Notes under the pieces: model-generated
The model's input: the letters and a program-made list of their open reading frames with translations, nothing else
Told to the model about the DNA's origin: nothing
Database searches by the model: none
Position numbers and translations under genes: made by a program
Assembly (NCBI RefSeq): GCF_000717595.1
Contig: NZ_JNZO01000038.1
Coordinates: forward strand, 1-64,000
DNA from: Streptomyces flavochromogenes
GTDB lineage: Bacteria; Actinomycetota; Actinomycetes; Streptomycetales; Streptomycetaceae
Length of the DNA: 64,000 nucleotides
Direction: 5' to 3'
Shown: piece by piece, positions 5,356-8,511 of the stretch
Layout: every line of letters begins with the position of its first letter
How positions within the stretch are numbered: the stretch's first letter is position 1

Positions 5356-6783
5356 ATGCGCCGAGCGAAAATCGTTTGTACCCTTGGGCCCGCCACCGAA
5401 ACATACGACCAGATCAAGGCGTTGATCGAGGCCGGAATGGACGTGGCCCGCTTCAACCTCAGCCACGGCTCGTACGCCGAGCACGAGGAGCGCTACCAGC
5501 GCGTACGCAAAGCCTCCGACGAGACCGGCCGCAGCATCGGAGTCCTCGCCGACCTTCAAGGCCCGAAGATTCGCCTCGGCCGCTTCCGCGAAGGCCCCGT
5601 ACTCCTTGAACGCGGCGACGAGTTCGCCATCTCCGTCGAGCCGATGGAGGGCGACCGCCACTGCTGCGGAACGACCTACTCGGGCCTCGCCGCCGACGTC
5701 ACCCCCGGTGAGCGCATCCTCGTCGACGACGGCCGCGTCACCCTCGAGGTCACCTCCGTCGACGGACCCCGGGTCAACACCGTGGTCATCGAGGGCGGCA
5801 TGGTCTCCGACAACAAGGGCCTCAACCTGCCCGGCGTCGCCGTCTCCGTCCCCGCCCTCTCCGAGAAGGACATCGAGGACCTGCGCTGGGCGCTGCGCAT
5901 CGGCGCCGACGTCATCGCGCTCTCCTTCGTCCGCAGCGCCCGGGACATCGACGACGTCCACCGGATCATGGACGAGGAAGGCCGCCGGCTGCCCGTCATC
6001 GCCAAGATCGAGAAGCCGCAGGCCGTCGAGAACATCGAGGAGATCGTCGCCGCCTTCGACGGCATCATGGTCGCCCGCGGCGACCTGGGCGTCGAGATGC
6101 CCCTGGAGCAGGTCCCGATCGTCCAGAAGCGCGCCGTCAAGCTCGCCAAGCGGAACGCCAAGCCGGTCATCGTCGCCACCCAGATGCTCGACTCGATGAT
6201 CGACAACTCCCGCCCCACGCGAGCCGAGGCGAGCGACGTGGCGAACGCGGTCATCGACGGCACCGACGCCGTCATGCTCTCCGGCGAGACCAGCGTCGGG
6301 CGCTACCCGATCGAGACCGTGCGCACCATGAGCCGCATCGTCGAGGCCGCGGAGGAAGACGTCCTCGCCAAGGGCCTGCCGCCGCTGACCGACCGGAACA
6401 AGCCCCGCACCCAGGGCGGCGCGGTGGCCCGCGCGGCCGCCGAGATGGGCGACTTCCTCGGCGCCAGGTTCCTCGTCGCCTTCACGCAGTCCGGCGACAC
6501 GGTCAAGCGGCTCTCCCGCTACCGCTCGCCGATCCCCCTGCTCGCCTTCACGCCGGACCCGGCGACGCGCTCCCAGCTCAACCTCACCTGGGGCGTCGAG
6601 ACCTTCCTCGGCCCGCACGTCGACTCGACGGACGCGATGGTGGCCCAGGTGGACGAGGAGCTCCTCCGGATCGGCCGCTGCAGGCCGGGCGACATCGTGG
6701 TGATCACGGCCGGCTCTCCGCCGGGGGTCGCGGGCTCGACGAACCTGGTACGGGTCCACCACATCGGGGATCCGCTGACGTAG
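5356..6783 (+). CDS. pyk: Pyruvate kinase
   Basis: 475 residues, normal length for bacterial pyruvate kinase, which makes pyruvate and ATP from phosphoenolpyruvate and ADP. The start is fixed by the conserved N-terminus (MRRAKIVCTLGPAT). NLSHG at 33-37, the catalytic-lysine segment IAKIEKPQ near 214-221, MVARGDLGVEMP near 238 (Mg/PEP binding) and the TQMLDSM...RAEASDVANAVIDGTDA block are all intact; the C-terminal allosteric domain is complete. Gene order (ANTAR regulator and liv operon just beyond) matches the pyk2 locus of Streptomyces coelicolor, which has two isozymes; which isozyme this is rests on that remembered order. Confidence 0.96.
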   Translation: MRRAKIVCTLGPATETYDQIKALIEAGMDVARFNLSHGSYAEHEERYQRVRKASDETGRSIGVLADLQGPKIRLGRFREGPVLLERGDEFAISVEPMEGDRHCCGTTYSGLAADVTPGERILVDDGRVTLEVTSVDGPRVNTVVIEGGMVSDNKGLNLPGVAVSVPALSEKDIEDLRWALRIGADVIALSFVRSARDIDDVHRIMDEEGRRLPVIAKIEKPQAVENIEEIVAAFDGIMVARGDLGVEMPLEQVPIVQKRAVKLAKRNAKPVIVATQMLDSMIDNSRPTRAEASDVANAVIDGTDAVMLSGETSVGRYPIETVRTMSRIVEAAEEDVLAKGLPPLTDRNKPRTQGGAVARAAAEMGDFLGARFLVAFTQSGDTVKRLSRYRSPIPLLAFTPDPATRSQLNLTWGVETFLGPHVDSTDAMVAQVDEELLRIGRCRPGDIVVITAGSPPGVAGSTNLVRVHHIGDPLT

Positions 6784-6786
6784 GGG

Positions 6787-7572
6787 TCAGTGCTTGGGGC
6801 CGACGTACTGGTCCATGAGGGCGACGTCGTCACGCCGTGCCACGGAGACATCGTGTGCCCCGGTCGCCCGGCGCCTGCTCCGCCAGGACACACCGACACG
6901 GTCCAGCGTGTCGGTGTACAGCCGCACTATGTCGTCCGAGGTGTTGGTGAAGAAGTAGCGGGGGTACTCGTACCGCTTCATCCGTCCACCGATGGTCTTC
7001 TCCGTCCAGTTGAGGATGCGCGACCCGTCGGAGTGGATCAGCCCTCGGATGAATGGCCACGAGTGGGCGTCGACGATCTCCTGCTGCCACGGTTCGAGGA
7101 CGATGGCCCGCTCGTGCTTCCTGCCGGGTCCGTGCTGCGGAAAGAGGCAGACGAGGTGCTTGGAGTACACCTTGACGTCGCGGCACCCGGTCTTCCGCGC
7201 CCAGGAGGCCGTGTTGTCGGGGAAGACCGTACGCACGGCCGCCATGGCTTCCCGCTGTACTCCGGGCCAGGCGTCGTCGAGCGTGATCCGCAGGCTCGGC
7301 ACCCGGTGCTGCCGGGGATGACTGATGTGCCCGTCGCCGAGGTACAGCCCGAGAAGGTACGCGTACGCGGCCTCGTCGAGCTCGCGTCCGTCGCACCGTG
7401 GGCAGAGCGGGCGGTGGCACCTGCCCGGGCTCTCGCCACGCTTCGCGCGGTCCTCGTGCTTCCAGGAGCTGATCGTGCCGGGTGGGACGTTCAGTGTCCG
7501 GGAGACGGTCGCGTTCTTCGCGCCGCTTCGTAGCAGGCTGAGTGCCCGTTGGCGCGTTCCGATGTCGTACAT
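6787..7572 (-). CDS. Free-standing LAGLIDADG homing-endonuclease-like protein with N-terminal HTH
   Basis: 261 residues from the ATG at 7572; an in-frame ATG at 7632 would add 20 residues, and neither has a clear ribosome site. Residues 7-40 form a Trp-repressor-like helix-turn-helix (ALSLLRSGAKNATVSRTLNV, then PPGTISSWK). A CHRPLCPRC cluster (C52, C57, C60) may bind zinc. Two LAGLIDADG helices follow: AYLLGLYLGDGHI (71-83) and PFIRGLIHSDGSRI (about 173-187), each with the acidic residue in the GDG/SDG position. It is not in an intron or intein. It lies 3 bp past the pyk stop and directly downstream of the tRNA on the same strand. It may be a relic endonuclease or a regulator domesticated from one. 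Confidence 0.75.
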   Translation of the reverse strand: MYDIGTRQRALSLLRSGAKNATVSRTLNVPPGTISSWKHEDRAKRGESPGRCHRPLCPRCDGRELDEAAYAYLLGLYLGDGHISHPRQHRVPSLRITLDDAWPGVQREAMAAVRTVFPDNTASWARKTGCRDVKVYSKHLVCLFPQHGPGRKHERAIVLEPWQQEIVDAHSWPFIRGLIHSDGSRILNWTEKTIGGRMKRYEYPRYFFTNTSDDIVRLYTDTLDRVGVSWRSRRRATGAHDVSVARRDDVALMDQYVGPKH

Positions 7573-7681
7573 GTGGCCGACGGTGCCTGCTGTGGCGGCG
7601 GGGCTGAGTGCGGATCGACAGAGTTCACGCATGTGGGTGACGATCGCTGACTGCTCGTCGGCCTTCGAATCGAAGGAAAAG

Positions 7682-7756
7682 TGCCCCAGGTGGGATTCGA
7701 ACCCACACTGTCCGCTGTTTGAGAGCGGCCTCTCTGACCAGTTGGAGTACTGGGGC
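7682..7756 (-). tRNA. tRNA with CAA anticodon (Leu by anticodon, class I shape)
   Basis: 75 nt. Acceptor GCCCCAG pairs perfectly with CTGGGGC; discriminator is A; no CCA is encoded. D arm is a 3-bp CTC/GAG stem with GG in the loop, the anticodon stem is CCGCT/AGCGG with loop CTCAAAC (anticodon CAA, reading UUG), and the T arm is GTGGG/CCCAC with loop TTCGAAT. The variable region is only ACAGT (5 nt), and A15-T48 can form a Levitt pair. Genuine tRNA-Leu has a long variable arm, so charging identity is uncertain although all stems are intact. The homing-endonuclease-like gene starts downstream of its 3' end. Confidence 0.8.
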
Positions 7757-7854
7757 CTTGGAAAGCCAGGGCATTGCCGCCCCTGTGGGGCACCACATTA
7801 CAGGAGCTAGGTAGGCTCAGGGGAGCAGTACTTGCCCCGCAACGAGGAGCCCCC

Positions 7855-8511
7855 GTGACCGCCCCCGAGTCGCCCCAGCCCGCCGACGACGCCGACGCGT
7901 CGCACGTCCCGCCGCTGACGACCCGCGTCGTCATCGCAGAGGACGAGGCCCTCATCCGCCTCGATCTCAAAGAGATGCTGGAGGAAGAGGGCTACACGGT
8001 CGTCGGCGAGGCAGGTGACGGCGCCACGGCCGTCGAGCTCGCCCGCGAGCACCGCCCCGACCTCGTCATCCTCGACGTGAAGATGCCCGTCCTCGACGGC
8101 ATCTCGGCCGCGGAGAAGATCGCCGGCGAGTCCATCGCCCCGGTCCTCATGCTCACCGCCTTCTCGCAGCGCGAGCTCGTCGAGCGGGCCCGGGACGCCG
8201 GCGCCATGGCGTACCTGGTGAAGCCGTTCAGCAAGAGCGACGTGGTGCCGGCCATCGAGATGGCCGTCTCCCGCTTCTCCGAACTCCGCGCCCTGGAGCA
8301 GGAGGTCGCCGACCTCTCCCAGCGCCTGGAGACCCGCAAGCTGGTCGACCGCGCCAAGTCCATCCTGCAGACCCAGTACGGGCTGACGGAGCCGGCCGCG
8401 TTCCGCTGGATCCAGAAGACGTCCATGGACCGGCGCATGTCCATGCAGCAGGTCGCCGAGGCCGTGATCGAGGACGCCGAGGAGAAGAAGGCGGCCAAGG
8501 GCCAGCAGTAG
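7855..8511 (+). CDS. pdtaR-like: ANTAR-domain response regulator (PdtaR-like)
   Basis: 218 residues from the GTG at 7855, preceded by GAGGAG. An acidic Ala/Pro-rich leader (1-22) precedes a CheY-like receiver with E29/D30/E31, phospho-acceptor D74, T101 and K123. After a coiled stretch (ELRALEQEVADLSQRLETRK) comes an ANTAR RNA-binding domain at about 145-205 with its AKSILQTQYGLTEPAAFRWIQ core. Such regulators act as antiterminators by binding twin-hairpin RNAs when phosphorylated; Mycobacterium PdtaR is the closest well-studied example, and its kinase there is an orphan. No kinase gene lies adjacent. A strong hairpin follows the stop. Confidence 0.9.
   Translation: MTAPESPQPADDADASHVPPLTTRVVIAEDEALIRLDLKEMLEEEGYTVVGEAGDGATAVELAREHRPDLVILDVKMPVLDGISAAEKIAGESIAPVLMLTAFSQRELVERARDAGAMAYLVKPFSKSDVVPAIEMAVSRFSELRALEQEVADLSQRLETRKLVDRAKSILQTQYGLTEPAAFRWIQKTSMDRRMSMQQVAEAVIEDAEEKKAAKGQQ

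Follow-up and report, generated by a model that had tools for sequence, protein, structure and literature searches.

A tRNA-Leu(CAA) gene without a long variable arm in Streptomyces, exchanged in linkage with a putative homing endonuclease gene

The leucyl-tRNA synthetase (LeuRS) of Escherichia coli can do without the long variable arm of its transfer RNA (tRNA) substrates; the accessible sections of PMC9976931 report that A73, A15-U48, G18G19, A20a and the D/T contacts matter, that the arm is dispensable, and that the enzyme charges minimal tRNAs without it. The only earlier short-loop bacterial tRNA-Leu that we found in the open-access literature is an extra UAG gene in a mycobacterial cluster (excerpts of PMC6582537). 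A study of tRNA genes in Streptomyces records a single CAA gene apiece for six genomes and, in its accessible part, makes no comment on the arm (PMC4932002), and the accessible text on tRNAscan-SE 2.0 describes a human CAA gene lacking the arm as Met-like, which is a different case (PMC8450103). Here we describe a tRNA gene with anticodon CAA and a short variable region in Streptomyces flavochromogenes (assembly GCF_000717595.1, contig NZ_JNZO01000038.1, positions 1 to 64,000; this whole 64-kb stretch is called the window below). It lies between a pyruvate kinase gene (pyk) and a response regulator gene, beside a gene for a LAGLIDADG-fold protein (Table 1). Most likely it encodes a working leucyl tRNA that lacks the long arm and reads UUG. 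The alleles at this locus exchange together with their leader and, more often than expected by chance, with the LAGLIDADG gene. We put the probability at about 0.7 that a short-arm leucyl tRNA and allele exchange with this gene, probably driven by homing, describe the system correctly.

ARAGORN reports a tRNA-Leu(caa) on the minus strand at 7681-7756, the only tRNA in the window, and Rfam family RF00005 matches 7682-7756 with 55.5 bits (gathering score 29; E 3.1e-9). The 75-nucleotide (nt) gene has a 7-bp acceptor stem, a D stem of 3 bp with C13 facing A22, the anticodon loop CUCAAAC, A14, A15-U48 and A73; its variable region is 5 nt long in both the ARAGORN and the Rfam models, and it is thus not a class II tRNA. 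The original prediction, which had been made from the letters of the window, had described the CAA anticodon, the 5-nt variable region and the A15-U48 pair correctly, and to this we add the strand, which it did not name. By BLAST, 17 of 392 Streptomyces genomes (its own included) contain the same 75 nt without a difference, and 40 of the 392 contain a match of at least 93% identity over at least 73 nt; because the sequence recurs in this way, a chance tRNA call is excluded. A promoter and terminator scan at the tRNA found nothing, and no consensus promoter. The fold is well kept among 84 distinct alleles (Streptomycetaceae contribute 68, other families 15 and a phage one; the remaining two of 86, both phage tRNAs, were excluded). 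The acceptor, D, T and 15-48 pairs are standard in all 84, as are four of the five anticodon-stem pairs, and the fifth, 31-39, is standard in 68. Many stem pairs covary: 28-42 is UA in 35 alleles, GC in 24, CG in 17 and AU in eight, and the 15-48 pair is AU in 58, as in the window, and GC in 26. A14 is present in 153 of 154 distinct alleles and A73 in 85 of 86; the window tRNA has A73 and U8-A14.

That this body carries leucine is suggested by the anticodons with which related bodies occur. Anticodon-free D-arm patterns were run in two IMG/VR scans, each with 120 stretches listed. Among the matches listed in the first, 129 of 129 phage tRNAs have leucine anticodons (UAA 58, UAG 27, CAA 25, CAG 8, GAG 8 and AAG 3; 126 are 75-78 nt long and the others 79, 80 and 85 nt), and among those listed in a second, non-overlapping set, 115 of 116 do, the last being unresolved. 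D-arm patterns in 296 Actinomycetota genomes gave 59 matches, of which 58 read CAA, UAA or UAG; the lone non-leucine match (genome G696), read by spacing, has no ARAGORN tRNA (L508), and the same holds for a match read by spacing as CAA (genome G758, L509). ARAGORN read 20 Actinomycetota loci from D-arm pattern matches as 15 UAA, two UAG and one CAA, with two giving no call. Since the body is found with all these leucine anticodons and with practically no other, leucine charging is the best explanation. The codons agree. In four genes (well-conserved columns; those with fewer than 20 other rows or a majority below 50% were dropped), leucine columns hold 78 of the 81 UUG codons of short-arm genomes and 20 of the 23 of long-arm genomes; for CUG the figures are 1768 of 1877 and 768 of 819, respectively. 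Charging by LeuRS would most likely proceed through A73, U8-A14, A15-U48 and the D-loop/T-loop contacts, with the arm unneeded, if the Streptomyces enzyme behaves as that of E. coli does. The A15-U48 pair had been listed beforehand as an oddity; it is in fact a determinant for E. coli LeuRS in the sections available of PMC9976931.

The genome from which the window comes (an 8.88 Mb draft in 169 contigs, 99.98% complete) contains 71 tRNA-family matches and one protein above the LeuRS family cut-off. Its leucine tRNAs, as read by ARAGORN, are GAG (three copies), CAG, UAA and UAG, all long-arm, plus the short-arm CAA tRNA. We looked for the normal tRNA-Leu(CAA) elsewhere that might have relegated this gene to a pseudogene, and neither ARAGORN nor a long-arm CAA pattern (0 matches) found a second CAA tRNA, a copy in a draft gap being possible. 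With the anticodon loop removed, the window tRNA is at best 62.5% identical to the genome's own long-arm leucine tRNAs, and its best match among the genome's tRNAs is a tRNA-Thr at 71.8%.

Both forms of this tRNA, the short-arm one in several versions, occupy the same chromosomal position. Of 525 relatives found through the ANTAR regulator, 80 named Streptomyces loci were retained, and at every one of them a single tRNA-Leu(CAA) lies upstream of the regulator, on the opposite strand; it is short-arm in 54 and long-arm in 26. Pattern counts over genomes (392 Streptomyces, 150 from the family and 346 Actinomycetota), which include some chance matches, give an either-arm CAA tRNA in 389 of 392 Streptomyces genomes and a short-arm one in 248. 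The either-arm pattern matches in 149 of the 150 genomes from 17 genera of the family, with both forms among the matches listed. Of the 346 Actinomycetota genomes, 36 match the short-arm pattern; judged by sequence, 23 of them appear genuine, seven of these being Streptomyces, and the 16 outside that genus, from four other families, were all confirmed by ARAGORN. Of 20 loci that were fetched, 19 are short-arm and one is long-arm. A plasmid origin of the tRNA was considered and rejected, the sole match spanning 29 nt of a Nonomuraea chromosome that is recorded as a plasmid, where ARAGORN reads another short-arm CAA tRNA. Separately, we observed short-arm tRNA-Leu(UAA) and tRNA-Leu(UAG) genes on the chromosomes of several Actinomycetota families (L496-L507, L510-L515), apparently the sole UAA gene in some; a UAA pattern run in six of these genomes found one gene, short-arm, in four and none in two, and in both of the latter ARAGORN still reads a short-arm UAA gene. 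In one Streptomyces genome, tRNA-Leu(UAA) genes of both forms lie side by side, a short-arm one and a long-arm one of the bldA kind (L131:1259-1333 and L131:1835-1918; contig G352:C8).

The distribution of the two forms on trees of the neighbouring genes shows what moves with the tRNA. On the regulator-side tree the form changes 23 times (at least 20 forced), with a shuffled mean of 22.3, and on the pyk tree (75 rows) it changes 20 times (at least 17 forced), with a shuffled mean of 20.6; three rows of the former tree (L181, L201 and L215) are very long, and the latter, in which none is, gives the same outcome. As these changes are as numerous as in shuffles, neither flank carries a signal for the tRNA form. 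On the tree of the LAGLIDADG protein the form changes only 7 times (at least four forced) against a shuffled mean of 15.6, none of 500 shuffles being as low, and the same 51 rows give 15 changes on the regulator-side tree. One supported clade of 26 LAGLIDADG proteins adjoins short-arm tRNAs only. Halving the protein gives 6 changes for the N-terminal and 7 for the C-terminal half, and thus does not indicate which half is linked to the tRNA. Close relatives show the boundaries of the exchange. In eight near pairs that differ in form, the flanks are 85-96% identical, the tRNAs 52-64% and the leaders 51-64%, and in two pairs with the same tRNA the leaders are 82% and 95% identical (pairs chosen by eye from the regulator-side tree; pyk values are for five of the eight different-form pairs and regulator values for all eight). 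These identities indicate that the exchanged segment lies between the stop of pyk and the start of the regulator and comprises the tRNA, the leader and, where there is one, the neighbour gene.

The LAGLIDADG open reading frame (ORF) begins 49 nt beyond the tRNA 3' end and encodes a putative freestanding homing endonuclease. It matches Pfam PF14528 (LAGLIDADG_3) with 23.1 bits against a cut-off of 22.5; its structure model has a predicted local distance difference test score (pLDDT) of 89.9, and the top matches of the model among PDB structures are LAGLIDADG homing endonucleases, with the transcription factor WhiA, which shares the LAGLIDADG fold, close behind. By sequence, PDB returned only matches with E 0.72 and 0.80, and a NCBIfam search gave no family. 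The fold has both of its motifs, and in the alignment the aspartates at the motif ends, D100 and D202, are invariant in 38 of 38 homologues. The ratio of nonsynonymous to synonymous substitution rates (dN/dS) of the gene is 0.12-0.49 in eight pairs. Of 7993 candidates scored in the protein database, 7648 match, and the named ones among the 120 listed are mostly called helix-turn-helix protein; a protein (P0004) of the laboratory strain Streptomyces venezuelae ATCC 10712 is 85% identical to that of the window. The genome's own copy is single, with none elsewhere in it at E 0.001, and of 12 other genomes nine have a match (E 1e-10), in all nine beside the CAA tRNA only and in some in pieces. At the 80 named loci there are 50 ORFs of at least 220 aa, seven partial ones and 23 loci with no match. 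At the 30 loci (own included) whose tRNA is at least 99% identical to that of the window, the gene, sought within 1.5 kb of the tRNA, is near full-length and in frame at 19, partial or split at six and missing at five. Intact, decaying and empty sites side by side fit the turnover expected of a homing cycle.

We propose the following scheme for the exchange, with homing as its likely driver. The endonuclease would swap a unit consisting of itself, the tRNA and the leader between two fixed genes. It would cut a chromosome bearing a different allele, presumably at or near the tRNA gene, and repair would copy in the nuclease together with the linked, uncut tRNA. A CAA tRNA is kept by nearly all genomes, so the unit would need to supply one itself; a tRNA that does the same job with a very different structure would serve well as a replacement that cannot be cut. 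More tentatively, and in our opinion possible rather than probable, the unit might be a natural "cleave and rescue" element, in which the nuclease destroys the resident, indispensable leucine tRNA gene and spreads with an equivalent that it does not cut. Were this so, the element would have caused leucine tRNAs to switch again and again between the long-arm and the short-arm form across Streptomyces.

Several observations weigh against a short-arm leucyl tRNA exchanged by homing. The window is itself an exception to the linkage, since its tRNA is short-arm and its protein comes from a group mostly linked to long-arm tRNAs (16 of 20 and 19 of 25 rows in the two supported sets that contain it). 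The window D arm deviates from the census patterns and is absent from the Actinomycetota matches, so that its link to the census runs via same-locus alleles. The A15-U48 pair is missing in 26 of 84 alleles, and the UAA tRNA may help to read UUG. As to the first point, the nearest named flanks are those of S. gardneri and Streptomyces sp. Root1304, and the window's nearest flank relatives carry another short-arm allele (75% identical) and no LAGLIDADG gene; beside the 30 near-identical tRNAs, the LAGLIDADG protein is 45-100% identical to that of the window, where this is the best reference. The mismatch in the window and the variable protein beside near-identical tRNAs together indicate that nuclease and tRNA are linked and not locked.

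The alternative that survives best keeps the leucyl tRNA and makes the LAGLIDADG gene a passenger: alleles would be shuffled by ordinary homologous recombination in the conserved flanks on either side, and their diversity selected by tRNA-cutting nucleases (for example, nucleases of long variable loops). It draws on the frequency of short-arm leucine tRNAs in phages and on the loci without a LAGLIDADG gene, which also have both forms; it does not account for the clustering of form on the LAGLIDADG tree and on neither flank tree, nor for the confinement of the gene to this locus wherever it was searched for. We regard it as unlikely, while keeping it in mind.

Far less credible is a tRNA charged with an amino acid other than leucine that mistranslates UUG, constantly or under stress. 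Mistranslating Pro-type tRNAs with a private synthetase are known in Streptomyces, and the dissimilarity of this body to the genome's long-arm leucine tRNAs, compared with the tRNA-Thr, speaks in the same direction. Against this stand UUG at leucine columns, the practically exclusive leucine anticodons of related bodies, the failure to find another CAA tRNA that would keep UUG as leucine, and the neighbourhood itself, which by Pfam consists of pyruvate kinase, the LAGLIDADG-like ORF and the ANTAR regulator, with no synthetase gene beside the tRNA. The original prediction had offered two options; the UUG columns, the phage anticodons and the one protein above the LeuRS cut-off favour the divergent leucyl isoacceptor over charging by another synthetase with a mistranslating or regulatory role. 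Neither the long-arm and short-arm alleles that different species have at this locus nor the adjoining endonuclease-like gene were apparent to that prediction. It is similarly hard to believe that the LAGLIDADG protein, instead of being a nuclease, binds DNA and regulates the tRNA in the manner of WhiA, near as WhiA comes in the structure matches. WhiA is not known to have catalytic acids, whereas both motif aspartates are invariant here, and it would be odd for a needed regulator to be absent or incomplete at 30 of 80 loci. Finally, we practically dismiss the possibility, also raised beforehand, of a pseudo-tRNA or a regulatory RNA unused in translation (UUG being read by the UAA tRNA), which the unusual body for this anticodon and the lack of a consensus promoter might suit, because the stems and the 15-48 pair are kept with covariation over 84 alleles and a CAA tRNA is present at all 80 named loci.

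Here the sole CAA tRNA found in a free-living bacterium is a short-arm tRNA for a leucine codon, a form whose pattern matches in 248 of 392 Streptomyces genomes. Software that expects the long arm may mistake genes of this kind for pseudogenes or mistranslators. At this locus nature provides pairs of interchangeable tRNAs with which to probe the requirements of LeuRS. The locus may also exemplify the trading of a tRNA gene through homing on a bacterial chromosome, which bears on how phage-type tRNAs enter core translation.

Table 1. Positions of the features discussed, numbered from the first letter of the window.
Feature	Position	Strand	Basis
tRNA gene, anticodon CAA, short variable region, no encoded CCA	7682..7756	minus	ARAGORN and Rfam RF00005
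Anticodon CAA (positions 34-36)	7719..7721	minus	ARAGORN and sequence
5-nt variable region ACAGU, last base is U48 of the A15-U48 pair	7707..7711	minus	Rfam alignment
Leader and presumed promoter region between tRNA and regulator, allele-variable	7757..7854	minus	Pairwise identities
LAGLIDADG-fold ORF, 281 aa, putative freestanding homing endonuclease	6787..7632	minus	Pfam, structure model, alignment
Pyruvate kinase gene, conserved flank	5356..6783	plus	Pfam PK 399.6 bits; tree of 75 rows
Response regulator with ANTAR domain, conserved opposite flank	7855..8511	plus	Pfam Response_reg and ANTAR

Other tRNA genes of the same genome also caught our attention. It has a second tRNA-Trp(CCA) (G000:C10:156531-156604, L043) and a second tRNA-Cys(GCA) (G000:C35:74215-74286, L045), each unlike the genome's other copy. 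Two tRNA-like genes score low (G000:C18:105589-105659, L066, and G000:C59:5943-6024, L065); one is called Ala(AGC) and the other has no clear anticodon. Another low-scoring gene, called as a short-arm tRNA-Ser(GCU) (L529:1747-1819, which is G000:C28:9746-9818) lies 31 nt upstream of a methionyl-tRNA-synthetase-like ORF (L529:1851-3560).

Compared with the systems already described, the window tRNA shares with class II tRNA-Leu(CAA) the anticodon, A73, A14, A15-U48 (in the window) and A22 facing position 13, and the two occupy the same chromosomal locus, the class II form doing so in 26 of the 80 named Streptomyces; it differs in its 5-nt variable region, in having U8-A9 instead of U8-G9, and in being no more than 68.8% identical to long-arm CAA alleles (anticodon loop removed). 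With phage short-arm tRNA-Leu it has in common the layout of D and T arms and the short variable region, the nearest being 82.9% identical (L252, UAG; anticodon loop removed); those tRNAs lie on phage contigs with various anticodons, whereas this is a chromosomal CAA tRNA. A nearest-neighbour comparison of 245 phage and 54 own tRNAs placed 86 of 86 nearer to phage, but it is biased by the larger phage set and we do not rely on it. Animal mitochondrial tRNA-Leu likewise has no long variable arm (accessible sections of PMC9976931), but it belongs to an organelle with its own LeuRS, and the likeness drawn here is one of description. As to the protein, LAGLIDADG homing endonucleases such as I-DmoI and I-Tsp061I are intron-encoded, whereas the window protein is freestanding, with an N-terminal helix-turn-helix and putative cleavage activity. 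Phage T4 SegB is a freestanding homing endonuclease whose gene lies among tRNA genes and which acts on the tRNA region (PMC2988022 and PMC6409571, in their accessible parts); it is a phage-borne GIY-YIG enzyme, whereas the window protein has a LAGLIDADG fold and is encoded on a bacterial chromosome beside one tRNA gene. By analogy, and as far as the accessible parts of PMC2988022, PMC13096335 and PMC6409571 describe it, SegB would be the nearest working counterpart of the unit found here.
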